The position numbers and the translations under genes were made by a program. Below are positions 35,913 to 58,844 of a stretch of 64,000 nt of DNA, in pieces (the first letter of the stretch is position 1; the number at the start of each line of letters is the position of its first letter). The DNA is from Gordius sp. MW1. Its lineage: Eukaryota > Nematomorpha > Gordioida > Gordea > Gordiidae. Under the pieces are notes generated by a model, which was not told the origin of the DNA, made no database searches, and worked only from the letters and a program-made list of their open reading frames with translations. The stretch lies in NCBI GenBank assembly GCA_964036665.1, contig OZ038526.1:8804001-8868000 (forward strand), written 5' to 3'.

Positions 35913-35936
35913 AATTTAACAAATCTTATATATAAC

Positions 35937-36136: not shown

Positions 36137-36379
36137 AACAAAAAACGAGCCCATAAATTGCATAGCAATTAATAAATTTCAATAGATTGGATTTAGAGGG
36201 GAACAGCCACCTCTCCCTGCCCCCCCCTCGGCTACACCCATGAATGCCCTTAATTAGGTTGGAAAGGGTGTGCGTTAATTAGCAAGTAGGGCACTGGCAG
36301 TTATTTTCACTATCGCTTCGAGTTCGTTCTCTGAAAAAAATAGTCTAGATTCGGTATTCTTAGTAATCTCTGGAAATTT

Positions 36380-36441
36380 CAGGGAGAACCTCTTATGGAG
36401 GTTCTCCCTGGGGATGGTTACGCGAATGTTTCGCCATCTCC
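36380..36441 (-). other. Terminal double hairpin of element A
   Basis: Hairpin 1: CAGGGAGAACCTC (36380-36392) pairs perfectly with GAGGTTCTCCCTG (36398-36410) around a TTATG loop. Hairpin 2: GGGGATGG (36410-36417) pairs with CCATCTCC (36434-36441), one G-T pair, around TTACGCGAATGTTTCG. The same pair of loops occurs in element B on unrelated stems. Other copies: 42560-42630 and 47702-47770 regions. Confidence 0.88.
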
Positions 36442-36460
36442 TTTTTATTTTATTCTAGAA
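36440..36460 (-). terminator. Candidate polyadenylation signal of element A
   Basis: The sense strand reads GAATAAAATAAAAAGG just upstream of hairpin 2, giving two overlapping AATAAA words about 60 nt after the second R_A. The position fits the 3-prime end of an element transcript. Confidence 0.6.
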
Positions 36461-36516
36461 TATTACACACTTATTTAGATATGCATTATGGGTAATAATA
36501 TATGCGACAATAAATG

Positions 36517-36639
36517 AAAATTATGGGTAAGGGCGTTACGGCACGTAAAGCAAACGCAAAAGACAAGAATAAATAGTATTTTACTAGTCTCGAATTATAG
36601 TAAGATTCTTAGACTAAGTTACGGTCTTTAAGCTTTAGC
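36517..36639 (-). repeat. R_A repeat, 3-prime copy (A1)
   Basis: 123 bp identical to 39373-39495. In sense it starts GCTAAAGCTTAAAGACC and ends CCCATAATTTT. It lies between the pol stop and the AATAAA/hairpin unit. Further copies occur in A2 (47844-47966 and near 50697-50819), the fragment at 42704-42826, A3 and A4. Confidence 0.9.
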
Positions 36640-36671
36640 AAATCGGTTGTAGTTCTCTGTGTAATTTTCAT

Positions 36672-38609
36672 TTATTGATAGGATTCGTCGGGGACGATAA
36701 CTTCGGGTGTGCATTTCTGTGATATCAGGTCGACCATGTACTCATCATTGAAGAATTCACGTGATGGAAGATCGGCCATGTTCTGATCTGTGGGTACCCA
36801 TTTCAGGCCATTCTTTATTCTAAGCACGTGATGTATACCTATACATAGTGCTATTTTGGTGAACGCACCTTCCAAGTGTGGCGCGTGAGCCGACCCTTTT
36901 TTGAAGATATAGAAGGCGGTTTTTGAATCGGTGTATATCGTAGGCGTCATGTTGGGATATTCTACTAAAACCCTGAGGTACGCTATGGGTATAGCGAGTA
37001 ATTCCAGCAAGTTGATCGTTGGTATGTAGTTCTGGCATTTAAACATTGCCAAGGCGTCAGCGATCGTCACTGACATGAATTCGGCCATAAAGTATATACC
37101 AATGTGGCTGGTGGATGCGTCACCGTACGCATCACTATCATACGTGGTCACCATTGGCAACGGGTGATTCATCAAAGTCTTGAGAGTCACCATTTTTTGT
37201 ACCAGGAGTCTTGTGTTGAATGGTATATTTGTTGCCCCGAGACAGATGTTATATGCTGGGGAAAAGAACTTCGTCCAACCAGTCACCATGTAAGTGTAAT
37301 GCGTAAGTATTCCTAAGCATGTTTGCGCTACTATCGGGTGTGGTTTTTTGTTTGTTGTGATGAAGTGAGAGATAATCATGATGGCTGCATCGATCTTCCT
37401 CAAGAACTTAGCATTGATCGATAGTTGATGTTGTATCAGGTTAATGTAAATCCCGAGGTAGTTGAGCATACGCTGGGGTGTAGTTTCGGATTTCATTTCG
37501 TTAATCGAAAGATTCCACTTTCGTGCTAATCTCAGAAAGGATTTGGTGTTGCTGCGTACTTCTTCCGCTGTTGTGCCGTAGATCAATATATCATCGAGGT
37601 ATACGTTATATCGGCACGTTGTTACTGACTTCTCGCATAAGTCTAACATAATCTGTTGTAACACGTAAGGTGAAAAGGACGCACCCATTGGGAGGACTTT
37701 GTATGCGTATTTGTATCTTCCGGACTTGAAACCAAACAGGTGTGATATTGATGGGTCAAGTTGTATGGCGAAGAACGCACTTTTCATGTCTATCTTGCAA
37801 GCGTAATTGGCTTCTGCTAGAGGTTTTGCAATCAAGGGGATAGATCGTAGCGAAAAGGGGTATGATACAAAGTTTTTGGAGATAATTGAAAGATCCGCGA
37901 TCATACGTGGGGACCCATCGTTTTTGGGTATAAAGTACATAGGGGATGGGATTGTGTTGGCATTGCGTCTAACGACATGTGAGTTGGTAACCTGTGCCAC
38001 CAGGTTCCTGTGGACGCGAGGAATTGGCCTTACATACCTGGGAACAAGGTATTGCCAATTGTTATTGGCGAGGGCTCGCCTACTTATCTTGGGTTTAAAC
38101 CCTTTGGTAGCGACATTGAATGTGAAAAGGGATTGGGAGTGATGGGGCCGTAATAATGTTGCGGCTAAATCGAGGGGTGAAGAGAAGGGGATTCGATTAC
38201 CATCGCTGATGTCCCAGAAAGCGGGGAAGTTGGGGATATTAGAGGGTTCGTTAATAGTGGGGATCGGCTCGCTATCTAATCCGATATCATGAAGGGGGCC
38301 ATTGAGGAATTCCGGCACCTCAGCGTGCTCAGGCGGCGACGTAGAAGGGTGGTCCAGTGGAGGGGTCCCTTCATCCGGTCCATCATCAAGGGAGACAGAA
38401 TTGATAGCGATGCTCCGGGCTAATTGAATGTAGTTATTTAGCCATATTGGAGCGGTCCGTCCCCCATTGATGCTCGGCGGGTTATCACCGCTGCCGAGGG
38501 TCGCCGCCGCCGTCCGCACGATCTGTCGCTCAGTCCTTCCTAGCCTCAGGCGCCCCTTTCTTTCTGTTGAAAGGCGCCTTCCTTGGCATAGGCTGTTGAT
38601 AATTCGGAC
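36672..38609 (-). CDS. Element A Pol: reverse transcriptase plus RNase H (copy A1)
   Basis: This frame is in the +1 frame of gag, open from 38678 and overlapping gag by 149 nt. No ATG lies before the RT, so expression by a +1 shift at 38606-38616 is likely and the start given follows that site. Counting from a GTG at 38519, RT blocks are YFIPKNDGSPRMIADLS, KIDMKSAFF (first Asp, about 244), LPMGASFSPYVLQ and YLDDIL (307-310). RNase H acidic residues sit in YGDASTSHIG, NLLELLAI, YTDSKTAF and NMADLPSR. About 200 residues precede the RT without a recognised domain. The enzyme would copy element RNA and remove the template. No protease, integrase or recombinase follows. All catalytic residues are present, and A2 encodes an identical protein. 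Confidence 0.88.
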   Translation of the reverse strand, partial: VRIINSLCQGRRLSTERKGRLRLGRTERQIVRTAAATLGSGDNPPSINGGRTAPIWLNNYIQLARSIAINSVSLDDGPDEGTPPLDHPSTSPPEHAEVPEFLNGPLHDIGLDSEPIPTINEPSNIPNFPAFWDISDGNRIPFSSPLDLAATLLRPHHSQSLFTFNVATKGFKPKISRRALANNNWQYLVPRYVRPIPRVHRNLVAQVTNSHVVRRNANTIPSPMYFIPKNDGSPRMIADLSIISKNFVSYPFSLRSIPLIAKPLAEANYACKIDMKSAFFAIQLDPSISHLFGFKSGRYKYAYKVLPMGASFSPYVLQQIMLDLCEKSVTTCRYNVYLDDILIYGTTAEEVRSNTKSFLRLARKWNLSINEMKSETTPQRMLNYLGIYINLIQHQLSINAKFLRKIDAAIMIISHFITTNKKPHPIVAQTCLGILTHYTYMVTGWTKFFSPAYNICLGATNIPFNTRLLVQKMVTLKTLMNHPLPMVTTYDSDAYGDASTSHIGIYFMAEFMSVTIADALAMFKCQNYIPTINLLELLAIPIAYLRVLVEYPNMTPTIYTDSKTAFYIFKKGSAHAPHLEGAFTKIALCIGIHHVLRIKNGLKWVPTDQNMADLPSREFFNDEYMVDLISQKCTPEVIVPDESYQ

Positions 38610-39366
38610 GAAAGGAATTAATTTGCTCTCCCATCTGTCCGAATCCGTTTTTAACTGCCCAATCCTTGGTTTTACCAGTCACCACCTGCCATCCGTAATA
38701 TGTTGCCATGGCTATTGTTTTTATTCTTTCGGAGAATACATCCGTGGCTTTGGTTTGATCATCCCATACCTCTCCTAATTCTAGGAGGAAATCTATTTCG
38801 TGTTTTTGGTACAATGGGATGGTTTTGTTTTTCTCGTCGGCTTCCTTGAGGCCTTTGAGTCTCTGTTTAAGTAGGTCAGTGCCCGTTTGTTCGATTCCCG
38901 AGACCTTCTTTTCCACTTCTCTAGTGATGATTGCGTTCAACTCATCATGGGTAAGGGTAAAGGTGTTTGGGTTGTATTGGGCTGATATCGTCGGTACTTG
39001 ACGTGGTGGCTTGAAGATTGGTGGTTGTAATAAAGGGGGAATGTATGGGGGGGCCCATGTCGGAGCATTACTGGTACTTTTGCTCCGTGATTCTTGCTCT
39101 TTTGCTCGTCGTAAGGATATTACATCATTCCTTATGGACTTCAGCTCTTTTGCAATCCATTCCACTGTATTGGATGCTAGTGGTGTGCCCGGGTCGTCCT
39201 TGGTGGCGTCCAAGAAATTGGATGCCCCTGTGGAGTCGAGGTGAGAGTCTTCTTCGTCATCTCGCACCTCACTGAAGGGGGGCTCTAGGGTAGGGTTGGA
39301 CGTTGTAAAAGTGGGGGCTGTCGTGGTGACAGAGGTGGTAGTTATAGAACGTAGATGGTAGGCCAT
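38530..39366 (-). CDS. Element A Gag-like protein (copy A1)
   Basis: 278 residues starting at the first ATG after R_A. Residues 1-60 are Thr/Ser/Asp rich, 68-92 form a likely helix (EWIAKELKSIRNDVISLRRA), 105-125 are Pro rich, and 137-250 form the conserved core. The tail is basic (PRKAPFNRKKGAPEARK), as in nucleic-acid-binding capsid tails. The block ERIKTIAMATYYGWQVV followed by W aligns with KQLKTLCLAIKYNWATA and W in element B, so the two Gags are homologous. There is no CCHC knuckle. Role as a particle protein is inferred from position and tail. Confidence 0.75.
   Translation of the reverse strand: MAYHLRSITTTSVTTTAPTFTTSNPTLEPPFSEVRDDEEDSHLDSTGASNFLDATKDDPGTPLASNTVEWIAKELKSIRNDVISLRRAKEQESRSKSTSNAPTWAPPYIPPLLQPPIFKPPRQVPTISAQYNPNTFTLTHDELNAIITREVEKKVSGIEQTGTDLLKQRLKGLKEADEKNKTIPLYQKHEIDFLLELGEVWDDQTKATDVFSERIKTIAMATYYGWQVVTGKTKDWAVKNGFGQMGEQINSFRPNYQQPMPRKAPFNRKKGAPEARKD
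38606..38616 (-). promoter_or_regulatory. Candidate +1 ribosomal frameshift site, UCC_UUU_CGU_C (element A)
   Basis: In the gag frame the codons read TCC TTT CGT CCG (Ser-Phe-Arg-Pro), the same motif known to direct +1 frameshifting elsewhere, where Phe-tRNA slips from UUU to UUC in front of a CGN codon. It lies inside the gag-pol overlap, about 81 nt before the gag stop. The matching position of element B has TTT CGA. Confidence 0.7.
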
Positions 39367-39372
39367 GGGGTA

Positions 39373-39495
39373 AAAATTATGGGTAAGGGCGTTACGGCAC
39401 GTAAAGCAAACGCAAAAGACAAGAATAAATAGTATTTTACTAGTCTCGAATTATAGTAAGATTCTTAGACTAAGTTACGGTCTTTAAGCTTTAGC
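39373..39495 (-). repeat. R_A repeat, 5-prime copy (A1)
   Basis: 123 bp identical to 36517-36639. It forms the 5-prime end and leader of element A and ends 7 bases before the gag ATG. No strong TATA box is seen, though TACTATAATTCG and TACTATTTATTC are candidates. Confidence 0.9.
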
Positions 39496-39500
39496 AATCA

Positions 39501-39563
39501 ATCTGGGAGAAGGGTTATGCCCTTCTTCCAGATCCCCTGGTTACGCAATTGTTTCACCAGGGG
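39501..39563 (-). other. Terminal double hairpin of element B
   Basis: Hairpin 1: ATCTGGGAGAAGGG (39501-39514) pairs with CCCTTCTTCCAGAT (39520-39533), one G-T pair, around TTATG. Hairpin 2: CCCCTGG (39534-39540) pairs with CCAGGGG (39557-39563) around TTACGCAATTGTTTCA. The loops equal or nearly equal those of element A although the stems are unrelated in sequence. Other copies start at about 44642, 50828 and 53891. Confidence 0.88.
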
Positions 39564-39565
39564 CT

Positions 39566-39571
39566 TTTATT
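39566..39571 (-). terminator. Candidate polyadenylation signal of element B
   Basis: The sense strand reads GTAAAATAAAAGCCCC. The AATAAA lies just upstream of hairpin 2, the same position as in element A. Confidence 0.6.
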
Positions 39572-39624
39572 TTACCCAATAAAAACTAATAACTCGTACA
39601 CTACAAATATGTCATAAAAAAGCG

Positions 39625-39758
39625 AAATTTTGGAGGTAAATATCGAGTGGTAAAAAGAGGGGGGCAGAGTGCGTAAATGCGTGGGAACAGAATAAGAAGC
39701 GAATGCGATGGAGTTGGTGTAACGCGTTTATATAGTGCGCGAGTCACGTGCTCGGGGG
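39625..39758 (-). repeat. R_B repeat, 3-prime copy (B1)
   Basis: 134 bp identical to 42426-42559. In sense it starts CCCCCGAGCACGTGACTCG and ends CCTCCAAAATTT. It begins 3 bases after the pol stop codon. It includes the same TATATAA box (39728-39734) as the 5-prime copy, here followed by only the 3-prime unit. Confidence 0.9.
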
Positions 39759-39761
39759 ATT

Positions 39762-41765
39762 TTAGGTTCGGTTTTCCCCCTCGCTTTCCAGGATTTCGCT
39801 TTCCCAGAAGCCCAAGTCTATTTCATCTTCATCATTGCCTATGCTTAGCAGATCTAGCTCCTCTGTGTTGGGGAGCTGTTCGGGTACGACATTACGTGCA
39901 AGTGGCAGGAATACGCGTGAAGGCTCATCCGCCGGGTTTTCGGTTGTTGAGACCCATCTTAGGTTAAAGTGCAACCTTAGTAAGTGAGAGACATCGTACG
40001 ACGCGACGAAATACGCTATTATTTTCTCCACTACGGGTGAGTTCGAACCACCTTTTCGGAGCACGAAATATGCTGTCATGGAATCCGTGAACACCTTGGG
40101 GTATCGGAACCCATTGTGGATTGCGTGAAGATACGCATAGATGGCGGCTAGCGTCTCGGTTGCGGTTATGTGGTTCGTGTTGGTCCAATCGAGTCCTATA
40201 GCTTGAGCAGCTGTTTCGAACGATACGGAGAATTTGACGTCTCCCCATGCGATACCGATGTGAGTGTCTGACGCGTCTGCGTAGATGGTTGTATCGTGCT
40301 CTCTATGGAGTGGGATGACTTGCGTGAGTAGTGCCAAACATCCTTCTAGTTTCTTGTGGGCAGCGGGTCTGTCGTGACTGGTGCCATTGCCGGTAGACAA
40401 GGAATAGAATGTGGTAAAAAGTTTCGGCATCCCCGTCAAGTTGTAATAAAAGTAGTTGAGGATGCCCAGCGCTTCCAGTAATACGTAGTCCTCTGGCGGC
40501 CTCGGTGTGGCCAAGAAGAGGAAAAGGATGTCAGCTGCGTACCGAAGGCGTTGTTGTATTTCAGGGGTGCACTTGACTGTGTGTGTGGCGAAGTCAAGGA
40601 CCATACCCAGGTATTTGATTTTGGTCTCTGCTGTGCAGGACGATTTACTGGTATTGATTGTTAAACCCCAATCGGCTGCCATTTGGGCGATGTTGCCCAA
40701 GTCGGTGACGACGTGGTCCTCATCTTTCGCGAAGATAAGTATATCATCGAGATATACATTGTAGTTGCACCGCGTGACCGCCGACTTCACTAGGTCCGCT
40801 ACGACCGTTTGTAGAACATATGGCGAGAACGATGCGCCCATCGGTAGGACATTGTACTGGTATGATTTTCCCCTCCACTTGTAACCGCAGTATCGTTTGT
40901 AATTTTTGTGGAGGGGAATACTGAAGAACGCCGCTTTCAGATCGATTTTAGCGGCGAAGTTAGCTGATGCTAACTGCTTTGCAGTCAACGGAATAGTCGC
41001 CAACTTCACTGGGAGATGGTGGAAGTTTTTTGAAGCTTCTGACATATCCGTGATAACCCGGGCGTCTCCGTTGCTTTTGGCTATGAAGAATGTTGCGGAG
41101 GTGATCGCGAGCGCTTGCGTCTCAGTAACAACCCCCGATTCCTTCATTGCAGTATAATAGCTTGGACTGCCTTTTGATATGCTACCCCCCCTGTTGGGCT
41201 TGAACAAGCCACCATTTGCCCTGATTTTGGCTAAGTTCAGGGGGGGTTTAAAGCCGTTGAAGGCTATATCCAATGTGAAGTGGGACATCATTGGATGAGG
41301 CTTTAGCCTTGTGGTTTTAATGTCTAGCGGCCCCGTGGGCTTTTTGCTAGCTGCCTCTTTTCCCCATCGGAAGAGGACTTTGTGATGATTGATGAGCGTT
41401 GGTATTAGGCTTGACCCTTGATCGGTGTCGAGTGGCTCATCCGTGGGGTTTACCCTTGCCGAAGTATCTGGCGGCGGTACTGGGTACGTACGAGGTGGTA
41501 GCGGATCCGGTTGTGTATCCTCCGGGTCGTTTGTTGGTTGTGGGGGCGAGAATATTAGTCGGCGAGTCTCCCTTAAGAAATTTACGATTTGTCGCCACCA
41601 CCTGGGAGACTCGATATTCTCGTCACCGTCTAGGGCCGGTTCGCCCGAAGGCCCGTAACCCCAGTTGTTGACTGTTTGCTTTAGTAGCTTACGAACGCGG
41701 GGCAGGGGCCGCGTTCTTCGTGAAGTGTCGGCCCGGCTTGCTGCCTCGGCCCCTGCCAGCGCCTC
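39762..41765 (-). CDS. Element B Pol: reverse transcriptase plus RNase H (copy B1)
   Basis: The frame is open from 41834, in the +1 frame of gag with a 146-nt overlap. The first ATG is at 41291, but homology to element A Pol (FTLDIAFNGFKPP against FTFNVATKGFKPK) and open sequence upstream argue that the protein begins by frameshift near 41767, giving about 668 codons. Counting from the ATG, RT blocks are FFIAKSNGDARVITDMS, KIDLKAAFF (Asp 117), LPMGASFSPYVLQ and YLDDIL (180-183). RNase H residues sit in YADASDTHIG, TATETLAAIY, FTDSMTAYF and NPADEPSR. The C-terminal tail is acidic (NDEDEIDLGFWESEILESE). No protease, integrase or recombinase is present. B3 and B4 encode the same protein. Confidence 0.88.
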   Translation of the reverse strand, partial: EALAGAEAASRADTSRRTRPLPRVRKLLKQTVNNWGYGPSGEPALDGDENIESPRWWRQIVNFLRETRRLIFSPPQPTNDPEDTQPDPLPPRTYPVPPPDTSARVNPTDEPLDTDQGSSLIPTLINHHKVLFRWGKEAASKKPTGPLDIKTTRLKPHPMMSHFTLDIAFNGFKPPLNLAKIRANGGLFKPNRGGSISKGSPSYYTAMKESGVVTETQALAITSATFFIAKSNGDARVITDMSEASKNFHHLPVKLATIPLTAKQLASANFAAKIDLKAAFFSIPLHKNYKRYCGYKWRGKSYQYNVLPMGASFSPYVLQTVVADLVKSAVTRCNYNVYLDDILIFAKDEDHVVTDLGNIAQMAADWGLTINTSKSSCTAETKIKYLGMVLDFATHTVKCTPEIQQRLRYAADILFLFLATPRPPEDYVLLEALGILNYFYYNLTGMPKLFTTFYSLSTGNGTSHDRPAAHKKLEGCLALLTQVIPLHREHDTTIYADASDTHIGIAWGDVKFSVSFETAAQAIGLDWTNTNHITATETLAAIYAYLHAIHNGFRYPKVFTDSMTAYFVLRKGGSNSPVVEKIIAYFVASYDVSHLLRLHFNLRWVSTTENPADEPSRVFLPLARNVVPEQLPNTEELDLLSIGNDEDEIDLGFWESEILESEGENRT

Positions 41766-42414
41766 GAAAAAACGACTTTTTTGGAGATTTGGGGGCGCTC
41801 CTTTCGATGTCGACGTTAGCCCATCCCATTTCGGCTAACCAGCTCGTGTCTGTTTTTATCGCTGTGGCCCAGTTGTATTTTATGGCTAGACATAGAGTTT
41901 TTAGCTGTTTGTCGTGGGTGGTAAGTACCTCCATGGGTGTGTTAGGCGTGCACGCTTTTGTCATTTCTATTGCGTATTTGGCCTCGTGCCGATCGCGTTT
42001 CTGTATTCGCTGATCTGGATCTTTGAGAAGGGCGTCTAGCCCTTGTGTATGTTTTAGTATGTCGTCATACACATTTGCCGGCGTTTTTGGTATTTCCGGC
42101 GCGGGTAGGACCTGCATGGTCGCAGGTGTGATTGGTTGCAAGGTGTTCGGTGGCACTTCCCGAATGGCTAGGTTCCCCATAACCGTGAGGGAGGATTGCA
42201 ACATCTCCCGCATTGCGTCTATTTGACGCTGATTCGCTTCAGCCATCTTCTGGTTTGTTTTAGCTTGTTCCTTCTGGAACTCCACTAGTTGCGCTATTAG
42301 CTCGTTAGGGCCCCCAGCGGGTACCCCTGCTCTGACAGGGCCCAAAGAGGAGCCAACAGGGCTGAGTGGAGTTGTCTCCCCGTCTTTACCACGGTTCCCG
42401 GCTGATTTAGTCAT
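41689..42414 (-). CDS. Element B Gag-like protein (copy B1)
   Basis: 241 residues. Residues about 38-72 are a strongly predicted coiled coil (ELIAQLVEFQKEQAKTNQKM and following Q/E-rich heptads), then a Pro-rich linker, then a core with KQLKTLCLAIKYNWATA shared with element A. The tail is basic and Gly rich (FFRGAGRGRGSKPGR), suited to binding nucleic acid. The ATG lies just after R_B. The stop overlaps the pol frame. All four B copies give the same sequence. Particle function is inferred. Confidence 0.75.
   Translation of the reverse strand: MTKSAGNRGKDGETTPLSPVGSSLGPVRAGVPAGGPNELIAQLVEFQKEQAKTNQKMAEANQRQIDAMREMLQSSLTVMGNLAIREVPPNTLQPITPATMQVLPAPEIPKTPANVYDDILKHTQGLDALLKDPDQRIQKRDRHEAKYAIEMTKACTPNTPMEVLTTHDKQLKTLCLAIKYNWATAIKTDTSWLAEMGWANVDIERSAPKSPKKSFFRGAGRGRGSKPGRHFTKNAAPAPRS
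41762..41775 (-). promoter_or_regulatory. Candidate +1 frameshift site, UUU_UUU_CGA (element B)
   Basis: The gag-frame codons TCG TTT TTT CGA GGC (Ser-Phe-Phe-Arg-Gly) lie about 78 nt before the gag stop, inside the gag-pol overlap. UUU followed by CGN matches the element A site in kind and position. Confidence 0.6.
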
Positions 42415-42425
42415 GTAGGGGGGAA

Positions 42426-42559
42426 AAATTTTGGAGGTAAATATCGAGTGGTAAAAAGAGGGGGGCAGAGTGCGTAAATGCGTGGGAACAGAATAAGAAG
42501 CGAATGCGATGGAGTTGGTGTAACGCGTTTATATAGTGCGCGAGTCACGTGCTCGGGGG
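42426..42559 (-). repeat. R_B repeat with promoter, 5-prime copy (B1)
   Basis: 134 bp forming the 5-prime end of B1. In sense, CCCCCGAGCACGTGACTCG is followed by a TATATAA box (42529-42535) and a leader to the gag ATG at 42414. The CACGTG palindrome is an E-box-like site. Other 5-prime copies end at 44639, 47701 and 53888. Confidence 0.88.
42529..42535 (-). promoter_or_regulatory. TATA box of element B
   Basis: The sense strand reads GCACTATATAAACGCG about 25-30 bases inside the element, upstream of gag. A TATA-driven start about 30 nt downstream would give an RNA that lacks the first part of R_B. Confidence 0.65.
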
Positions 42560-42826
42560 AAAATTTCAGGGAGAACCTCTTATGGAGGTTCTCCCTGGGG
42601 ATGGTTACGCGAATGTTTCGCCATCTCCTTTTTATTTTATTCTAGAATATTACACACTTATTTAGATATGCATTATGGGTAATAATATATGCGACAATAA
42701 ATGAAAATTATGGGTAAGGGCGTTACGGCACGTAAAGCAAACGCAAAAGACAAGAATAAATAGTATTTTACTAGTCTCGAATTATAGTAAGATTCTTAGA
42801 CTAAGTTACGGTCTTTAAGCTTTAGC
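42560..42826 (-). mobile_element. Element A 3-prime fragment (R_A, AATAAA, hairpins)
   Basis: This is the complete 3-prime end of element A from the start of its second R_A. On the 5-prime side it is fused directly to the middle of the pol of B2 at 42826/42827. In sense the junction reads TATCTCGA then GCTAAAGC. Confidence 0.9.
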
Positions 42827-43845
42827 TCGAGATATACATTGTAGTTGCACCGCGTGACCGCCGACTTCACTAGGTCCGCTACGACCGTTTGTAGAACATA
42901 TGGCGAGAACGATGCGCCCATCGGTAGGACATTGTACTGGTATGATTTTCCCCTCCACTTGTAACCGCAGTATCGTTTGTAATTTTTGTGGAGGGGAATA
43001 CTGAAGAACGCCGCTTTCAGATCGATTTTAGCGGCGAAGTTAGCTGATGCTAACTGCTTTGCAGTCAACGGAATAGTCGCCAACTTCACTGGGAGATGGT
43101 GGAAGTTTTTTGAAGCTTCTGACATATCCGTGATAACCCGGGCGTCTCCGTTGCTTTTGGCTATGAAGAATGTTGCGGAGGTGATCGCGAGCGCTTGCGT
43201 CTCAGTAACAACCCCCGATTCCTTCATTGCAGTATAATAGCTTGGACTGCCTTTTGATATGCTACCCCCCCTGTTGGGCTTGAACAAGCCACCATTTGCC
43301 CTGATTTTGGCTAAGTTCAGGGGGGGTTTAAAGCCGTTGAAGGCTATATCCAATGTGAAGTGGGACATCATTGGATGAGGCTTTAGCCTTGTGGTTTTAA
43401 TGTCTAGCGGCCCCGTGGGCTTTTTGCTAGCTGCCTCTTTTCCCCATCGGAAGAGGACTTTGTGATGATTGATGAGCGTTGGTATTAGGCTTGACCCTTG
43501 ATCGGTGTCGAGTGGCTCATCCGTGGGGTTTACCCTTGCCGAAGTATCTGGCGGCGGTACTGGGTACGTACGAGGTGGTAGCGGATCCGGTTGTGTATCC
43601 TCCGGGTCGTTTGTTGGTTGTGGGGGCGAGAATATTAGTCGGCGAGTCTCCCTTAAGAAATTTACGATTTGTCGCCACCACCTGGGAGACTCGATATTCT
43701 CGTCACCGTCTAGGGCCGGTTCGCCCGAAGGCCCGTAACCCCAGTTGTTGACTGTTTGCTTTAGTAGCTTACGAACGCGGGGCAGGGGCCGCGTTCTTCG
43801 TGAAGTGTCGGCCCGGCTTGCTGCCTCGGCCCCTGCCAGCGCCTC
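42827..43845 (-). pseudogene. Element B Pol, truncated (copy B2)
   Basis: Pol frame as in B1 through CNYNVYL, then 10 foreign codons from the joined R_A and a stop at 42796. The catalytic YLDD, thumb and RNase H are lost, so the product cannot polymerise. Confidence 0.85.
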
Positions 43846-44494
43846 GAAAAAACGACTTTTTTGGAGATTTGGGGGCGCTCCTTTCGATGTCGACGTTAGC
43901 CCATCCCATTTCGGCTAACCAGCTCGTGTCTGTTTTTATCGCTGTGGCCCAGTTGTATTTTATGGCTAGACATAGAGTTTTTAGCTGTTTGTCGTGGGTG
44001 GTAAGTACCTCCATGGGTGTGTTAGGCGTGCACGCTTTTGTCATTTCTATTGCGTATTTGGCCTCGTGCCGATCGCGTTTCTGTATTCGCTGATCTGGAT
44101 CTTTGAGAAGGGCGTCTAGCCCTTGTGTATGTTTTAGTATGTCGTCATACACATTTGCCGGCGTTTTTGGTATTTCCGGCGCGGGTAGGACCTGCATGGT
44201 CGCAGGTGTGATTGGTTGCAAGGTGTTCGGTGGCACTTCCCGAATGGCTAGGTTCCCCATAACCGTGAGGGAGGATTGCAACATCTCCCGCATTGCGTCT
44301 ATTTGACGCTGATTCGCTTCAGCCATCTTCTGGTTTGTTTTAGCTTGTTCCTTCTGGAACTCCACTAGTTGCGCTATTAGCTCGTTAGGGCCCCCAGCGG
44401 GTACCCCTGCTCTGACAGGGCCCAAAGAGGAGCCAACAGGGCTGAGTGGAGTTGTCTCCCCGTCTTTACCACGGTTCCCGGCTGATTTAGTCAT
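43769..44494 (-). CDS. Element B Gag-like protein (copy B2)
   Basis: Protein identical to the B1 Gag (coiled coil, Pro-rich linker, KTLCLAIKYNW block, Gly/Arg tail). The intact gag beside a truncated pol means B2 could supply only particle protein. Confidence 0.75.
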   Translation of the reverse strand: MTKSAGNRGKDGETTPLSPVGSSLGPVRAGVPAGGPNELIAQLVEFQKEQAKTNQKMAEANQRQIDAMREMLQSSLTVMGNLAIREVPPNTLQPITPATMQVLPAPEIPKTPANVYDDILKHTQGLDALLKDPDQRIQKRDRHEAKYAIEMTKACTPNTPMEVLTTHDKQLKTLCLAIKYNWATAIKTDTSWLAEMGWANVDIERSAPKSPKKSFFRGAGRGRGSKPGRHFTKNAAPAPRS

Positions 44495-44903
44495 GTAGGG
44501 GGGAAAAATTTTGGAGGTAAATATCGAGTGGTAAAAAGAGGGGGGCAGAGTGCGTAAATGCGTGGGAACAGAATAAGAAGCGAATGCGATGGAGTTGGTG
44601 TAACGCGTTTATATAGTGCGCGAGTCACGTGCTCGGGGGTCAATCTGGGAGAAGGGTTATGCCCTTCTTCCAGATCCCCTGGTTACGCAATTGTTTCACC
44701 AGGGGCTTTTATTTTACCCAATAAAAACTAATAACTCGTACACTACAAATATGTCATAAAAAAGCGAAATTTTGGAGGTAAATATCGAGTGGTAAAAAGA
44801 GGGGGGCAGAGTGCGTAAATGCGTGGGAACAGAATAAGAAGCGAATGCGATGGAGTTGGTGTAACGCGTTTATATAGTGCGCGAGTCACGTGCTCGGGGG
44901 ATT

Positions 44904-47556: not shown

Positions 47557-47998
47557 GTAGGGGGGAAAAATTTTGGAGGTAAATATCGAGTGGTAAAAAG
47601 AGGGGGGCAGAGTGCGTAAATGCGTGGGAACAGAATAAGAAGCGAATGCGATGGAGTTGGTGTAACGCGTTTATATAGTGCGCGAGTCACGTGCTCGGGG
47701 GAATTTCAGGGAGAACCTCTTATGGAGGTTCTCCCTGGGGATGGTTACGCGAATGTTTCGCCATCTCCTTTTTATTTTATTCTAGAATATTACACACTTA
47801 TTTAGATATGCATTATGGGTAATAATATATGCGACAATAAATGAAAATTATGGGTAAGGGCGTTACGGCACGTAAAGCAAACGCAAAAGACAAGAATAAA
47901 TAGTATTTTACTAGTCTCGAATTATAGTAAGATTCTTAGACTAAGTTACGGTCTTTAAGCTTTAGCAAATCGGTTGTAGTTCTCTGTGTAATTTTCAT

Positions 47999-50693: not shown

Positions 50694-51090
50694 GGGGTAA
50701 AAATTATGGGTAAGGGCGTTACGGCACGTAAAGCAAACGCAAAAGACAAGAATAAATAGTATTTTACTAGTCTCGAATTATAGTAAGATTCTTAGACTAA
50801 GTTACGGTCTTTAAGCTTTCAATCAATCAATCTGGGAGAAGGGTTATGCCCTTCTTCCAGATCCCCTGGTTACGCAATTGTTTCACCAGGGGCTTTTATT
50901 TTACCCAATAAAAACTAATAACTCGTACACTACAAATATGTCATAAAAAAGCGAAATTTTGGAGGTAAATATCGAGTGGTAAAAAGAGGGGGGCAGAGTG
51001 CGTAAATGCGTGGGAACAGAATAAGAAGCGAATGCGATGGAGTTGGTGTAACGCGTTTATATAGTGCGCGAGTCACGTGCTCGGGGGATT

Positions 51091-53094
51091 TTAGGTTCGG
51101 TTTTCCCCCTCGCTTTCCAGGATTTCGCTTTCCCAGAAGCCCAAGTCTATTTCATCTTCATCATTGCCTATGCTTAGCAGATCTAGCTCCTCTGTGTTGG
51201 GGAGCTGTTCGGGTACGACATTACGTGCAAGTGGCAGGAATACGCGTGAAGGCTCATCCGCCGGGTTTTCGGTTGTTGAGACCCATCTTAGGTTAAAGTG
51301 CAACCTTAGTAAGTGAGAGACATCGTACGACGCGACGAAATACGCTATTATTTTCTCCACTACGGGTGAGTTCGAACCACCTTTTCGGAGCACGAAATAT
51401 GCTGTCATGGAATCCGTGAACACCTTGGGGTATCGGAACCCATTGTGGATTGCGTGAAGATACGCATAGATGGCGGCTAGCGTCTCGGTTGCGGTTATGT
51501 GGTTCGTGTTGGTCCAATCGAGTCCTATAGCTTGAGCAGCTGTTTCGAACGATACGGAGAATTTGACGTCTCCCCATGCGATACCGATGTGAGTGTCTGA
51601 CGCGTCTGCGTAGATGGTTGTATCGTGCTCTCTATGGAGTGGGATGACTTGCGTGAGTAGTGCCAAACATCCTTCTAGTTTCTTGTGGGCAGCGGGTCTG
51701 TCGTGACTGGTGCCATTGCCGGTAGACAAGGAATAGAATGTGGTAAAAAGTTTCGGCATCCCCGTCAAGTTGTAATAAAAGTAGTTGAGGATGCCCAGCG
51801 CTTCCAGTAATACGTAGTCCTCTGGCGGCCTCGGTGTGGCCAAGAAGAGGAAAAGGATGTCAGCTGCGTACCGAAGGCGTTGTTGTATTTCAGGGGTGCA
51901 CTTGACTGTGTGTGTGGCGAAGTCAAGGACCATACCCAGGTATTTGATTTTGGTCTCTGCTGTGCAGGACGATTTACTGGTATTGATTGTTAAACCCCAA
52001 TCGGCTGCCATTTGGGCGATGTTGCCCAAGTCGGTGACGACGTGGTCCTCATCTTTCGCGAAGATAAGTATATCATCGAGATATACATTGTAGTTGCACC
52101 GCGTGACCGCCGACTTCACTAGGTCCGCTACGACCGTTTGTAGAACATATGGCGAGAACGATGCGCCCATCGGTAGGACATTGTACTGGTATGATTTTCC
52201 CCTCCACTTGTAACCGCAGTATCGTTTGTAATTTTTGTGGAGGGGAATACTGAAGAACGCCGCTTTCAGATCGATTTTAGCGGCGAAGTTAGCTGATGCT
52301 AACTGCTTTGCAGTCAACGGAATAGTCGCCAACTTCACTGGGAGATGGTGGAAGTTTTTTGAAGCTTCTGACATATCCGTGATAACCCGGGCGTCTCCGT
52401 TGCTTTTGGCTATGAAGAATGTTGCGGAGGTGATCGCGAGCGCTTGCGTCTCAGTAACAACCCCCGATTCCTTCATTGCAGTATAATAGCTTGGACTGCC
52501 TTTTGATATGCTACCCCCCCTGTTGGGCTTGAACAAGCCACCATTTGCCCTGATTTTGGCTAAGTTCAGGGGGGGTTTAAAGCCGTTGAAGGCTATATCC
52601 AATGTGAAGTGGGACATCATTGGATGAGGCTTTAGCCTTGTGGTTTTAATGTCTAGCGGCCCCGTGGGCTTTTTGCTAGCTGCCTCTTTTCCCCATCGGA
52701 AGAGGACTTTGTGATGATTGATGAGCGTTGGTATTAGGCTTGACCCTTGATCGGTGTCGAGTGGCTCATCCGTGGGGTTTACCCTTGCCGAAGTATCTGG
52801 CGGCGGTACTGGGTACGTACGAGGTGGTAGCGGATCCGGTTGTGTATCCTCCGGGTCGTTTGTTGGTTGTGGGGGCGAGAATATTAGTCGGCGAGTCTCC
52901 CTTAAGAAATTTACGATTTGTCGCCACCACCTGGGAGACTCGATATTCTCGTCACCGTCTAGGGCCGGTTCGCCCGAAGGCCCGTAACCCCAGTTGTTGA
53001 CTGTTTGCTTTAGTAGCTTACGAACGCGGGGCAGGGGCCGCGTTCTTCGTGAAGTGTCGGCCCGGCTTGCTGCCTCGGCCCCTGCCAGCGCCTC
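51091..53094 (-). CDS. Element B Pol (copy B4)
   Basis: RT plus RNase H, protein identical to B1 and B3, motifs intact. Confidence 0.85.
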   Translation of the reverse strand, partial: EALAGAEAASRADTSRRTRPLPRVRKLLKQTVNNWGYGPSGEPALDGDENIESPRWWRQIVNFLRETRRLIFSPPQPTNDPEDTQPDPLPPRTYPVPPPDTSARVNPTDEPLDTDQGSSLIPTLINHHKVLFRWGKEAASKKPTGPLDIKTTRLKPHPMMSHFTLDIAFNGFKPPLNLAKIRANGGLFKPNRGGSISKGSPSYYTAMKESGVVTETQALAITSATFFIAKSNGDARVITDMSEASKNFHHLPVKLATIPLTAKQLASANFAAKIDLKAAFFSIPLHKNYKRYCGYKWRGKSYQYNVLPMGASFSPYVLQTVVADLVKSAVTRCNYNVYLDDILIFAKDEDHVVTDLGNIAQMAADWGLTINTSKSSCTAETKIKYLGMVLDFATHTVKCTPEIQQRLRYAADILFLFLATPRPPEDYVLLEALGILNYFYYNLTGMPKLFTTFYSLSTGNGTSHDRPAAHKKLEGCLALLTQVIPLHREHDTTIYADASDTHIGIAWGDVKFSVSFETAAQAIGLDWTNTNHITATETLAAIYAYLHAIHNGFRYPKVFTDSMTAYFVLRKGGSNSPVVEKIIAYFVASYDVSHLLRLHFNLRWVSTTENPADEPSRVFLPLARNVVPEQLPNTEELDLLSIGNDEDEIDLGFWESEILESEGENRT

Positions 53095-53743
53095 GAAAAA
53101 ACGACTTTTTTGGAGATTTGGGGGCGCTCCTTTCGATGTCGACGTTAGCCCATCCCATTTCGGCTAACCAGCTCGTGTCTGTTTTTATCGCTGTGGCCCA
53201 GTTGTATTTTATGGCTAGACATAGAGTTTTTAGCTGTTTGTCGTGGGTGGTAAGTACCTCCATGGGTGTGTTAGGCGTGCACGCTTTTGTCATTTCTATT
53301 GCGTATTTGGCCTCGTGCCGATCGCGTTTCTGTATTCGCTGATCTGGATCTTTGAGAAGGGCGTCTAGCCCTTGTGTATGTTTTAGTATGTCGTCATACA
53401 CATTTGCCGGCGTTTTTGGTATTTCCGGCGCGGGTAGGACCTGCATGGTCGCAGGTGTGATTGGTTGCAAGGTGTTCGGTGGCACTTCCCGAATGGCTAG
53501 GTTCCCCATAACCGTGAGGGAGGATTGCAACATCTCCCGCATTGCGTCTATTTGACGCTGATTCGCTTCAGCCATCTTCTGGTTTGTTTTAGCTTGTTCC
53601 TTCTGGAACTCCACTAGTTGCGCTATTAGCTCGTTAGGGCCCCCAGCGGGTACCCCTGCTCTGACAGGGCCCAAAGAGGAGCCAACAGGGCTGAGTGGAG
53701 TTGTCTCCCCGTCTTTACCACGGTTCCCGGCTGATTTAGTCAT
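53018..53743 (-). CDS. Element B Gag-like protein (copy B4)
   Basis: 241 residues identical to the other B copies, preceded by R_B with its TATA box. Confidence 0.75.
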   Translation of the reverse strand: MTKSAGNRGKDGETTPLSPVGSSLGPVRAGVPAGGPNELIAQLVEFQKEQAKTNQKMAEANQRQIDAMREMLQSSLTVMGNLAIREVPPNTLQPITPATMQVLPAPEIPKTPANVYDDILKHTQGLDALLKDPDQRIQKRDRHEAKYAIEMTKACTPNTPMEVLTTHDKQLKTLCLAIKYNWATAIKTDTSWLAEMGWANVDIERSAPKSPKKSFFRGAGRGRGSKPGRHFTKNAAPAPRS

Positions 53744-53888
53744 GTAGGGGGGAAAAATTTTGGAGGTAAATATCGAGTGGTAAAAAGAGGGGGGCAGAGT
53801 GCGTAAATGCGTGGGAACAGAATAAGAAGCGAATGCGATGGAGTTGGTGTAACGCGTTTATATAGTGCGCGAGTCACGTGCTCGGGGG

Positions 53889-54149
53889 TCAATCTGGGAG
53901 AAGGGTTATGCCCTTCTTCCAGATCCCCTGGTTACGCAATTGTTTCACCAGGGGCTTTTATTTTACCCAATAAAAACTAATAACTCGTACACTACAAATA
54001 TGTCATAAAAAAGCGAAATTTTGGAGGTAAATATCGAGTGGTAAAAAGAGGGGGGCAGAGTGCGTAAATGCGTGGGAACAGAATAAGAAGCGAATGCGAT
54101 GGAGTTGGTGTAACGCGTTTATATAGTGCGCGAGTCACGTGCTCGGGGG
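53889..54149 (-). repeat. Lone element B terminal repeat (R_B plus 3-prime unit)
   Basis: 261 bp comprising R_B, AATAAA and the double hairpin without any coding part. Its hairpin end abuts the 5-prime end of B4 (AGATTGA|CCCCC) and its CCCCC end abuts the reversed A3, making a head-to-head junction. Confidence 0.88.
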
Positions 54150-56424
54150 AAGCTTAAAGACCGTAACTTAGTCTAAGAATCTTACTATAATTCGAGACTA
54201 GTAAAATACTATTTATTCTTGTCTTTTGCGTTTGCTTTACGTGCCGTAACGCCCTTACCCATAATTTTTACCCCATGGCCTACCATCTACGTTCTATAAC
54301 TACCACCTCTGTCACCACGACAGCCCCCACTTTTACAACGTCCAACCCTACCCTAGAGCCCCCCTTCAGTGAGGTGCGAGATGACGAAGAAGACTCTCAC
54401 CTCGACTCCACAGGGGCATCCAATTTCTTGGACGCCACCAAGGACGACCCGGGCACACCACTAGCATCCAATACAGTGGAATGGATTGCAAAAGAGCTGA
54501 AGTCCATAAGGAATGATGTAATATCCTTACGACGAGCAAAAGAGCAAGAATCACGGAGCAAAAGTACCAGTAATGCTCCGACATGGGCCCCCCCATACAT
54601 TCCCCCTTTATTACAACCACCAATCTTCAAGCCACCACGTCAAGTACCGACGATATCAGCCCAATACAACCCAAACACCTTTACCCTTACCCATGATGAG
54701 TTGAACGCAATCATCACTAGAGAAGTGGAAAAGAAGGTCTCGGGAATCGAACAAACGGGCACTGACCTACTTAAACAGAGACTCAAAGGCCTCAAGGAAG
54801 CCGACGAGAAAAACAAAACCATCCCATTGTACCAAAAACACGAAATAGATTTCCTCCTAGAATTAGGAGAGGTATGGGATGATCAAACCAAAGCCACGGA
54901 TGTATTCTCCGAAAGAATAAAAACAATAGCCATGGCAACATATTACGGATGGCAGGTGGTGACTGGTAAAACCAAGGATTGGGCAGTTAAAAACGGATTC
55001 GGACAGATGGGAGAGCAAATTAATTCCTTTCGTCCGAATTATCAACAGCCTATGCCAAGGAAGGCGCCTTTCAACAGAAAGAAAGGGGCGCCTGAGGCTA
55101 GGAAGGACTGAGCGACAGATCGTGCGGACGGCGGCGGCGACCCTCGGCAGCGGTGATAACCCGCCGAGCATCAATGGGGGACGGACCGCTCCAATATGGC
55201 TAAATAACTACATTCAATTAGCCCGGAGCATCGCTATCAATTCTGTCTCCCTTGATGATGGACCGGATGAAGGGACCCCTCCACTGGACCACCCTTCTAC
55301 GTCGCCGCCTGAGCACGCTGAGGTGCCGGAATTCCTCAATGGCCCCCTTCATGATATCGGATTAGATAGCGAGCCGATCCCCACTATTAACGAACCCTCT
55401 AATATCCCCAACTTCCCCGCTTTCTGGGACATCAGCGATGGTAATCGAATCCCCTTCTCTTCACCCCTCGATTTAGCCGCAACATTATTACGGCCCCATC
55501 ACTCCCAATCCCTTTTCACATTCAATGTCGCTACCAAAGGGTTTAAACCCAAGATAAGTAGGCGAGCCCTCGCCAATAACAATTGGCAATACCTTGTTCC
55601 CAGGTATGTAAGGCCAATTCCTCGCGTCCACAGGAACCTGGTGGCACAGGTTACCAACTCACATGTCGTTAGACGCAATGCCAACACAATCCCATCCCCT
55701 ATGTACTTTATACCCAAAAACGATGGGTCCCCACGTATGATCGCGGATCTTTCAATTATCTCCAAAAACTTTGTATCATACCCCTTTTCGCTACGATCTA
55801 TCCCCTTGATTGCAAAACCTCTAGCAGAAGCCAATTACGCTTGCAAGATAGACATGAAAAGTGCGTTCTTCGCCATACAACTTGACCCATCAATATCACA
55901 CCTGTTTGGTTTCAAGTCCGGAAGATACAAATACGCATACAAAGTCCTCCCAATGGGTGCGTCCTTTTCACCTTACGTGTTACAACAGATTATGTTAGAC
56001 TTATGCGAGAAGTCAGTAACAACGTGCCGATATAACGTATACCTCGATGATATATTGATCTACGGCACAACAGCGGAAGAAGTACGCAGCAACACCAAAT
56101 CCTTTCTGAGATTAGCACGAAAGTGGAATCTTTCGATTAACGAAATGAAATCCGAAACTACACCCCAGCGTATGCTCAACTACCTCGGGATTTACATTAA
56201 CCTGATACAACATCAACTATCGATCAATGCTAAGTTCTTGAGGAAGATCGATGCAGCCATCATGATTATCTCTCACTTCATCACAACAAACAAAAAACCA
56301 CACCCGATAGTAGCGCAAACATGCTTAGGAATACTTACGCATTACACTTACATGGTGACTGGTTGGACGAAGTTCTTTTCCCCAGCATATAACATCTGTC
56401 TCGGGGCAACAAATATACCATTCA
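54150..56424 (+). mobile_element. Element A, copy A3 (reversed, 3-prime truncated)
   Basis: The only member with its sense strand on plus. It holds R_A, gag and pol up to ATACCATTC, then switches into the reversed A4 at 56424/56425. Confidence 0.9.
54275..55111 (+). CDS. Element A Gag-like protein (copy A3)
   Basis: 278 residues identical to A1 Gag, intact. Confidence 0.75.
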   Translation: MAYHLRSITTTSVTTTAPTFTTSNPTLEPPFSEVRDDEEDSHLDSTGASNFLDATKDDPGTPLASNTVEWIAKELKSIRNDVISLRRAKEQESRSKSTSNAPTWAPPYIPPLLQPPIFKPPRQVPTISAQYNPNTFTLTHDELNAIITREVEKKVSGIEQTGTDLLKQRLKGLKEADEKNKTIPLYQKHEIDFLLELGEVWDDQTKATDVFSERIKTIAMATYYGWQVVTGKTKDWAVKNGFGQMGEQINSFRPNYQQPMPRKAPFNRKKGAPEARKD

Positions 56425-56480
56425 TGGGGTGTAGTTTCGGATTTCATTTCGTTAATCGAAAGATTCCACTTTCGTGCTAA
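55032..56480 (+). pseudogene. Element A Pol, truncated (copy A3)
   Basis: Pol frame as in A1 with RT complete through YLDDIL and the connection region, then foreign codons after GATNIPF where the reversed A4 begins. RNase H is lost. Confidence 0.85.
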
Positions 56481-57560
56481 TCTCAGAAAGGATTTGGTGT
56501 TGCTGCGTACTTCTTCCGCTGTTGTGCCGTAGATCAATATATCATCGAGGTATACGTTATATCGGCACGTTGTTACTGACTTCTCGCATAAGTCTAACAT
56601 AATCTGTTGTAACACGTAAGGTGAAAAGGACGCACCCATTGGGAGGACTTTGTATGCGTATTTGTATCTTCCGGACTTGAAACCAAACAGGTGTGATATT
56701 GATGGGTCAAGTTGTATGGCGAAGAACGCACTTTTCATGTCTATCTTGCAAGCGTAATTGGCTTCTGCTAGAGGTTTTGCAATCAAGGGGATAGATCGTA
56801 GCGAAAAGGGGTATGATACAAAGTTTTTGGAGATAATTGAAAGATCCGCGATCATACGTGGGGACCCATCGTTTTTGGGTATAAAGTACATAGGGGATGG
56901 GATTGTGTTGGCATTGCGTCTAACGACATGTGAGTTGGTAACCTGTGCCACCAGGTTCCTGTGGACGCGAGGAATTGGCCTTACATACCTGGGAACAAGG
57001 TATTGCCAATTGTTATTGGCGAGGGCTCGCCTACTTATCTTGGGTTTAAACCCTTTGGTAGCGACATTGAATGTGAAAAGGGATTGGGAGTGATGGGGCC
57101 GTAATAATGTTGCGGCTAAATCGAGGGGTGAAGAGAAGGGGATTCGATTACCATCGCTGATGTCCCAGAAAGCGGGGAAGTTGGGGATATTAGAGGGTTC
57201 GTTAATAGTGGGGATCGGCTCGCTATCTAATCCGATATCATGAAGGGGGCCATTGAGGAATTCCGGCACCTCAGCGTGCTCAGGCGGCGACGTAGAAGGG
57301 TGGTCCAGTGGAGGGGTCCCTTCATCCGGTCCATCATCAAGGGAGACAGAATTGATAGCGATGCTCCGGGCTAATTGAATGTAGTTATTTAGCCATATTG
57401 GAGCGGTCCGTCCCCCATTGATGCTCGGCGGGTTATCACCGCTGCCGAGGGTCGCCGCCGCCGTCCGCACGATCTGTCGCTCAGTCCTTCCTAGCCTCAG
57501 GCGCCCCTTTCTTTCTGTTGAAAGGCGCCTTCCTTGGCATAGGCTGTTGATAATTCGGAC
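56425..57560 (-). pseudogene. Element A Pol, truncated (copy A4)
   Basis: Keeps YLDDIL but ends after SETTP and then reads antisense of A3. The RT connection and RNase H are missing. Confidence 0.85.
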
Positions 57561-58317
57561 GAAAGGAATTAATTTGCTCTCCCATCTGTCCGAATCCGTT
57601 TTTAACTGCCCAATCCTTGGTTTTACCAGTCACCACCTGCCATCCGTAATATGTTGCCATGGCTATTGTTTTTATTCTTTCGGAGAATACATCCGTGGCT
57701 TTGGTTTGATCATCCCATACCTCTCCTAATTCTAGGAGGAAATCTATTTCGTGTTTTTGGTACAATGGGATGGTTTTGTTTTTCTCGTCGGCTTCCTTGA
57801 GGCCTTTGAGTCTCTGTTTAAGTAGGTCAGTGCCCGTTTGTTCGATTCCCGAGACCTTCTTTTCCACTTCTCTAGTGATGATTGCGTTCAACTCATCATG
57901 GGTAAGGGTAAAGGTGTTTGGGTTGTATTGGGCTGATATCGTCGGTACTTGACGTGGTGGCTTGAAGATTGGTGGTTGTAATAAAGGGGGAATGTATGGG
58001 GGGGCCCATGTCGGAGCATTACTGGTACTTTTGCTCCGTGATTCTTGCTCTTTTGCTCGTCGTAAGGATATTACATCATTCCTTATGGACTTCAGCTCTT
58101 TTGCAATCCATTCCACTGTATTGGATGCTAGTGGTGTGCCCGGGTCGTCCTTGGTGGCGTCCAAGAAATTGGATGCCCCTGTGGAGTCGAGGTGAGAGTC
58201 TTCTTCGTCATCTCGCACCTCACTGAAGGGGGGCTCTAGGGTAGGGTTGGACGTTGTAAAAGTGGGGGCTGTCGTGGTGACAGAGGTGGTAGTTATAGAA
58301 CGTAGATGGTAGGCCAT
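57481..58317 (-). CDS. Element A Gag-like protein (copy A4)
   Basis: 278 residues identical to A1 Gag, intact. Confidence 0.75.
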   Translation of the reverse strand: MAYHLRSITTTSVTTTAPTFTTSNPTLEPPFSEVRDDEEDSHLDSTGASNFLDATKDDPGTPLASNTVEWIAKELKSIRNDVISLRRAKEQESRSKSTSNAPTWAPPYIPPLLQPPIFKPPRQVPTISAQYNPNTFTLTHDELNAIITREVEKKVSGIEQTGTDLLKQRLKGLKEADEKNKTIPLYQKHEIDFLLELGEVWDDQTKATDVFSERIKTIAMATYYGWQVVTGKTKDWAVKNGFGQMGEQINSFRPNYQQPMPRKAPFNRKKGAPEARKD

Positions 58318-58844
58318 GGGGTAAAAATTATGGGTAAGGGCGTTACGGCACGTAAAGCAAACGCAAAAGACAAGAATAAATAGTATTTTACTAGTCTCGA
58401 ATTATAGTAAGATTCTTAGACTAAGTTACGGTCTTTAAGCTTAACCATCTTCTGGGGGATATAGGCTAAATCCCGAAAAGGCACAATCCCGAAGCTACAA
58501 TAATGCTACTGCTACGATTTTCAAATTTCCATATGTTTTTTAATTTTAAAGTTTTATCCATAATCAAGAGCAAGATTTGGGTGCCCCTTTACAATTTACT
58601 TATGTAAGAATCACATTTAATTAACCTCTGCACCAAGTAACATAATATAGCTTTATTTACAGATCACTGATGAGTATTAATATTTAGTGACAAGGTATAA
58701 ATTAAAGGATGCCATTAATAATAATCGTTTGGAATCAATATCTAAGGTAATTTTAACGTATTTAAAATCAGGGAATCATTAATCCTATTAGGTATACAAT
58801 AATGTTTGGGTATTATGTACTCAAGAGCTATATTTGGGTGGAAC

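Follow-up and report, generated by a model that had tools for sequence, protein, structure and literature searches.

Organization of the mixed A/B array

The window analyzed here is a stretch of 64,000 nucleotides from the hairworm Gordius sp. MW1 (contig OZ038526.1, positions 8,804,001 to 8,868,000). At positions 36375-58442 it contains an unbroken array of two retroelements, termed A (3123 bp) and B (3063 bp), in which neighboring members are separated by at most 1-2 bases on a blastn map of the A and B units. The array consists of eight bodies, four of type A (two of them full length) and four of type B (three full length), together with two solo end pieces (Table 1). One copy, of type A, is inverted and lies on the plus strand, and three bodies are truncated. 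In six pairwise comparisons within types, each over 1.8-3.1 kb, there were 0 mismatches and 0 gaps.

Table 1. Features of the A/B array. Coordinates are those of the window on the plus strand; the coding strand is minus unless stated otherwise. ORF, open reading frame; RT, reverse transcriptase; RNase H, ribonuclease H.
Feature	Position	Strand	Basis
Entire mixed array	36375..58442	.	blastn mapping of both unit types
A unit 1, full length, R-ORF1-ORF2-R-tail	36375..39497	-	
A unit 1 tail, external to 3′ R; AATAAA and two adjacent hairpins	36375..36516	-	
A 3′ R repeat, 125 bp, identical to 5′ R	36517..36641	-	
A ORF2, RT-RNase H, open frame, +1 to ORF1; RT core not preceded by an ATG	36672..38678	-	
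A ORF1, Gag-like in layout, 278 aa; no Pfam match reaching the cut-off	38530..39366	-	
A 5′ R repeat; 6 nt to ORF1 ATG	39373..39497	-	
B unit 1, full length	39498..42560	-	
B unit 1 tail; AATAAA and two hairpins	39498..39624	-	
B 3′ R repeat, 135 bp	39625..39759	-	
B ORF2, open frame, RT-RNase H	39762..41834	-	
B ORF1, 241 aa, weakly similar to A ORF1	41689..42414	-	
B 5′ R repeat; CACGTG and TATATAA	42426..42560	-	
A-type solo R-tail	42562..42826	-	
B, 3′-truncated within RT, joined to A solo R-tail	42827..44639	-	blastn map
B unit, full length	44640..47701	-	
A unit, full length; variant 5′ joint	47702..50825	-	
B unit, full length	50827..53888	-	
B-type solo R-tail; 5′ end abuts 5′ end of inverted A copy	53889..54150	-	
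A, inverted, 3′-truncated	54150..56424	+	
A, 3′-truncated; its 5′ R is the right array edge	56425..58442	-	

An earlier, sequence-only reading of this DNA had given unit lengths of about 3.12 kb for A and 3.06 kb for B and had described directly abutting members, identical protein sequences among copies and a common layout of Gag-like and RT-RNase H frames, all of which agrees with our map. Its count of nine members is roughly right, given eight bodies and two solo pieces; the inversion and the three truncations went unmentioned.

That the array is an artefact of the assembly is hardly credible. Its order is indeed known from the assembly and not from raw reads, but it lies in the interior of a 37.4 Mb contig, at 8.84-8.86 Mb, and its joints differ in fine detail, which speaks against a simple assembly expansion. 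Furthermore, comparable arrays are present at other loci, and in one of these (L023) the arms have diverged to 97.3% identity.

In coding orientation, a full unit of A or B has the structure R-ORF1-ORF2-R-tail. R is a direct repeat resembling a long terminal repeat (LTR), of which the two copies are pairwise identical, and the tail is external to the 3′ copy. Across the family units described the R repeats measure 120-135 bp, and a TATA-like box is present in five of the seven R repeats tested. ORF1 has a basic C-terminus in both elements. The ORF1 proteins of A and B show a weak likeness (E 4e-4 over 75 aa; profile probability 31%), and an AlphaFold2 model of ORF1 was poor, with a mean predicted local distance difference test score (pLDDT) of 42.4. 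ORF2 overlaps ORF1 by 149 nt in A and 146 nt in B in the +1 frame, as computed by hand from the ORF coordinates, and the relatives at L032 and L033 agree. It matches the Pfam family RVT_1 with E values of 1.6e-24 (A) and 1.2e-26 (B). Since the RT core of A has no ATG ahead of it, ORF2 of A is likely expressed by frameshifting. At the positions which we take to form the catalytic sites, the RT aspartates and the first three acidic residues of RNase H are invariant in 14 aligned sequences, the fourth nearly so.

RVT_1 in ORF2 was the sole Pfam match above cut-off in A and B, and no integrase, protease or tyrosine recombinase was detected in either by Pfam. As a positive control, the same library detected protease and integrase in a Ty3/gypsy element of the same genome (L015). 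For the tyrosine recombinase family PF00589 there were 0 matches in the genome and matches in 14 of 14 control genomes, all of them prokaryotic; the model may miss the eukaryotic enzymes of DIRS elements. Likewise, the N-terminal pieces of ORF2 of A and B gave no Pfam match at all, a terminal-protein domain included. The 5′ R and the ATG of ORF1 are just 6 nt apart in A and 11 nt apart in B, so that, judged by space alone, neither element can accommodate a tRNA primer-binding site behind its 5′ R.

The tails carry AATAAA and hairpins, and all four tail pieces analyzed fold better than each of 200 shuffles, with z-scores of -7.2 (A), -6.1 (B), and -4.8 and -3.2 for two other tails. In the first hairpin, compared in eight tails with the motif, three of seven pairs have both bases exchanged from A-type to B-type tails yet remain paired (in 8, 8 and 7 of the 8 tails); one further pair is disrupted in each of the four A-type tails. 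A ribozyme was considered for this hairpin and found no support in Rfam, where a scan of 36300-42700 gave two matches only, both far below the gathering scores.

Distribution and kinship of the A/B family

Merged searches with the RT pieces of A and B yielded at least 184 RT loci in the genome, fragments included, which fall into 134 clusters under a 7 kb rule; 69 loci are nearer to A and 115 nearer to B. For these counts 137 of 139 (A) and 136 of 138 (B) listed matches were used, two short second pieces having been dropped from each, and the numbers are lower bounds, as the search scores the best candidates only. The RTs of A and B are 38% identical, and the two elements are members of two old clades of one large family. 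Multi-copy clusters account for 29 of the 134, and 25 of these 29 contain copies in both orientations. In a tally covering the deep split between the A and B clades, a single one of the 29 is mixed, namely the array in the window.

Outside the window, intact A-type copies with frames of 659 aa occur without B at C7:19616119-19631437, and L031 is a single intact B-type unit without A. Comparison of the RT-RNase H pieces gave nonsynonymous (dN) and synonymous (dS) divergences of 0.009 and 0.33 between A and the C7 copy, and of 0.024 and 0.83 between B and L031, i.e. a dN/dS of about 0.03 for each lineage from one comparison each. The A and B lineages have each evolved independently under strong constraint on RT-RNase H. 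In addition, relatives can occupy more than one site, as shown by a pair of copies, one on C6 and one on C7, with 98% identity over 1963 bp.

These data bear on the proposal of the sequence-only reading that A and B travel together or supply functions to each other, as telomeric retroelement pairs do. An obligate two-partner system, replicating and moving jointly, would account for the interspersion of A and B in the window. It is nevertheless very improbable, since intact A-only and B-only loci are found, only one of the 29 multi-copy clusters is mixed, and each element has complete ORF1 and RT-RNase H frames, the latter constrained on its own. Nor does the telomeric analogy hold: pairs of the HeT-A/TART type are located at chromosome ends, whereas the A/B array is internal to its contig. 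CCCTAA repeats were seen at two of three contig starts read (C1 and C3, not C7).

The placement of the family was assessed in an RT tree of 77 rows, in which group labels were assigned from Pfam domains and motifs. The A/B family forms one clade (98/95 for 12 family rows) on the side of DIRS-like proteins and of P0016, a protein with a hepadnaviral RNase H domain (PF00336 at 5.9e-9). A branch with 100/100 support separates this side from Ty3/gypsy; 38 of the 39 gypsy-labelled rows lie beyond it, and the remaining one (P0024) has a long branch. P0016 and two odd RTs (P0050 and P0066) group with the family at 93/89, with long branches, so that this tie is unsure. In approximately unbiased (AU) tests, holding the family with P0016 alone was not rejected (p 0.055) and holding it with the DIRS rows was borderline (p 0.049). 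The sequence-only reading had asked whether an RT phylogeny would reveal A and B as deletion derivatives of an autonomous element with integrase or recombinase. A Ty3-type ancestry with integrase is not supported, whereas descent from an ancestor on the DIRS side that lost its recombinase retains some probability, the AU test with the DIRS rows being borderline.

PF00336 was searched with ten inputs (eight RNase H pieces and the whole proteins P0001 and P0002) and gave three matches, all below cut-off and all from the B clade (B 0.037, L022 0.087, L031 0.11; three of three B-clade pieces); none of the five A-clade pieces and neither of two Gordionus proteins matched. The two best protein relatives are proteins of Gordionus, likewise a hairworm, with 40% and 37% identity. 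When viral contigs were scanned, using as queries the RT-RNase H alignment and P0016, no relative turned up.

Joints and formation of the array

Of the nine internal joints, seven connect two unit ends, one (42827) has a unit end on one side and one (56424) on neither. The tail (3′) end is nearly exact at the joints; among the five joints of A, by comparison, no fewer than four different 5′ ends occur, the one at 50825 including an extra stretch. The two B-A joints differ in sequence, and the two A-B joints differ slightly. Because of these differences and the variable 5′ ends of A, several joining events must be assumed. We consider it probable, though well short of certain, that A and B are co-resident lineages of one family whose extrachromosomal complementary DNAs (cDNAs) were joined and then inserted together. 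We regard the insertion of the joined A/B product as recent.

Alternatively, a small initial A/B insertion could have grown in place by unequal crossing-over or re-replication, with its copies kept identical by gene conversion. The perfect identity of the copies would be expected in this case, the two B-B joints (44640 and 53889) are identical, and an A-B pair recurs (36375-42560 and 47702-53888). Moreover, this genome does amplify segments: at C6:19308000-19348000 (L015-L018) a segmental tandem repeat, at 19.31-19.34 Mb, has a unit of 8.8-8.9 kb composed of a B-clade copy and an opposite-strand Ty3/gypsy element with integrase. This C6 locus had also been considered as a second mixed array, which was rejected given the nature of its other member and of the repeat as a whole. 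Against growth in place stand the differences among the B-A and among the A-B joints, the varied 5′ ends of A and the order of the array, which is not periodic; crossing-over within unit bodies would also not need the unit ends that are present on both sides of most joints. We therefore regard growth in place as rather unlikely.

A further explanation is that the concatemer was made at cDNA synthesis, the RT, on reaching the 5′ end of a template during insertion, jumping to the 3′ end of another. End-to-end template jumping by the RTs of non-LTR elements leaves end patterns such as those seen here, i.e. nearly exact tail ends opposed to ragged 5′ ends of A and the extra stretch at 50825. However, the 5′ ends of the units fall at the beginning of R, ahead of the TATA-like box, and are thus probably not plain RNA 5′ ends, and the one 5′-to-5′ joint and the one internal inverted joint require copying of cDNA as well. 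Template jumping as the sole source of the array is thus quite unlikely.

Under the favored joining of extrachromosomal cDNAs, transcription would begin within the 5′ R, the RNA would terminate in the tail, and first-strand synthesis would probably be primed from the folded 3′ end. Such hairpin priming is inferred from three features: the missing space for a primer site, the position of the tail and the occurrence of fold-back joints. The redundancy of the two R copies would let the cDNA continue onto further templates, and the extrachromosomal DNA would comprise full units, R-sharing multimers and truncated pieces. These molecules would be linked at their ends, irrespective of orientation, and would enter the chromosome together, perhaps through host repair, so that the array in the window would represent two co-resident clonal lineages joined.

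Several features of other family arrays can be set beside this scheme. Multimers that share R and have no tail between units are present on C7 (period 2857) and at C8:11.69 Mb (L022, period 2793), and copies in both orientations occur in other arrays of the family as well. Among seven tail-to-tail joints read, four (L032, C5a, L023 and C7c) have a single central tail or hairpin. This matches the geometry of fold-back priming; trimming before joining could give the same result. No target-site duplication of at least 4 nt was seen by eye at any of four insertions (window array, L031, L033 and L022), whose ends are uncertain by a few nt. The other proposal of the sequence-only reading, that replicons become linked ahead of integration or in its course, agrees with the joints, with the clonal identity of the copies and with the further arrays of the family, while growth in place retains some probability.

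A number of observations weigh against the joining of extrachromosomal cDNAs. Neither extrachromosomal DNA nor RNA was observed. The identity of the two B-B joints is what duplication after insertion would give. The other three of the seven tail-to-tail joints (56424 in the window, C7a and C1a) are internal-internal and have no hairpin, and the motif of the first hairpin was recognized by eye in nine of 14 tail rows, L032/L033 and C5a carrying other hairpins. Finally, clusters of Ty3/gypsy elements in the same genome contain both orientations in four of five cases under the 7 kb rule or in six of nine under a 13 kb rule scaled to element length.

This Ty3/gypsy control, comprising at least 150 loci among the matches listed, weakens the idea that inverted pairs are a trait specific to the family; inverted copies may instead reflect a habit of the hairworm host of producing inverted duplications. 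The tendency to cluster, on the other hand, is stronger in the A/B family: 29 of 134 clusters are multi-copy, compared with 5 of 145 (7 kb) or 9 of 136 (13 kb) for Ty3/gypsy, among the matches listed.

More broadly, and tentatively, it is possible that hairworms carry old and diverse DNA replicons with capsid and RT genes but without integrase, sister to the hepadnavirus line. These would be largely extrachromosomal, primed by their own 3′ hairpin rather than by tRNA or protein, and would insert into the genome time and again as concatemers that are clonal and in some cases mixed. Retroelements between the DIRS type and hepadnaviruses are few and bear on the origin of DNA viruses with capsid and RT. 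The present family is large, with intact frames and constrained RT-RNase H in the lineages compared, and comes from a phylum hardly sampled for transposons. Its anatomy, i.e. LTR-like repeats, no space for a primer site and a hairpin tail beyond the 3′ repeat, yields a testable prediction on priming, and the mixed array, in which two lineages share one array, offers a way to study chromosome entry without integrase.

Some further observations were made in the window and the genome. Tandem repeats with periods of 61-288 occupy 34744-36058 and end about 300 bp left of the array, and a direct repeat with a spacing of about 1.57 kb lies to its right at 61328-63713. A Gag-like frame at 424-1245 has weak matches to PNMA and retroviral protease, both below cut-off. 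At 5974-8885, an RT frame of 645 aa follows a frame of 325 aa with an overlap of 4 nt; from its motifs we take it to be of non-LTR (LINE-like) type, and by blastp it matches neither A nor B nor the other collected proteins significantly (best E 0.15). The mitochondrial contig of 14,798 bp (L034, C12:1-5000), the smallest one read, has recognizable cox1 and nad1 frames in its first 5000 bases, and the nad1 frame contains perfect inverted repeats with arms of up to 108 nt. For Nematomorpha, such long perfect repeats are described at exceptional scale in the genes of NADH dehydrogenase, not in cox1 (PMC6649704). Together with the Gordionus relatives, this identifies the host as a hairworm.

Comparison with known systems

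Retroelements on the hepadnavirus/DIRS side and tandem arrays of integrase-free elements are already known as kinds. The hairworm family itself, its anatomy and the mixed array are apparently undescribed, none of them having been found in the open-licence literature searched. The direct terminal repeats (R) are a likeness to LTR retrotransposons, from which the A/B units differ by the tail outside the 3′ R and by the lack of space for a tRNA primer site. From Ty3/gypsy elements (Metaviridae) they are set apart by an RT outside that clade and by the absence of integrase or aspartic protease matches. With the DIRS order, including VIPER/TATE, the family shares its side of the RT tree, distant from Ty3/gypsy, and the absence of a DDE integrase; the tree contains no named VIPER or TATE row. 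In contrast to DIRS, no tyrosine recombinase was found in the A/B units or, by PF00589, in the genome. Furthermore, DIRS elements have split or inverted terminal repeats, whereas A, B, L031 and L033 are organized as R-body-R-tail.

With regard to array form, Cassandra elements are described as tandem LTR arrays in which LTRs are common to neighboring units (PMC7215508). This resembles the sharing of R in the C7 and C8:11.69 Mb arrays, Cassandra being a plant element without coding domains. Endogenous caulimovirids, including the bipartite florendoviruses with components A and B, form tandem arrays and multicopy rearrangements thought to arise from concatemers or recombination (PMC10377300). 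The likeness lies in tandem arrays and two components. Caulimovirids have plant hosts, in contrast to the animal host here, and the hairworm A and B are redundant, each with both genes, rather than complementary.

HEART elements are described as invertebrate endogenous retroelements closely related to Blubervirales (PMC12691608, PMC11551314). The A/B family resembles this description in being endogenous to an invertebrate and in its place, with 93/89 support, beside P0016 with its hepadnaviral RNase H domain. Blubervirales (hepadnaviruses, nackednaviruses and proto-nackednaviruses) share with A and B a size of about 3 kb, capsid-like and RT-RNase H genes and the absence of a detected integrase. 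The RNase H of B ends in NPADEPSR, as does that of P0016, a motif which we take to be similar to hepadnaviral ones. The A/B elements differ from Blubervirales in the +1 position of ORF2 relative to ORF1, with no ATG before the RT core of A, in having no terminal-protein domain match, and in their direct R repeats with an outer tail and their chromosomal arrays; no particle or circle was observed. Overall, HEART retroelements, known here by description only, and Blubervirales are likely the kin of the A/B family.

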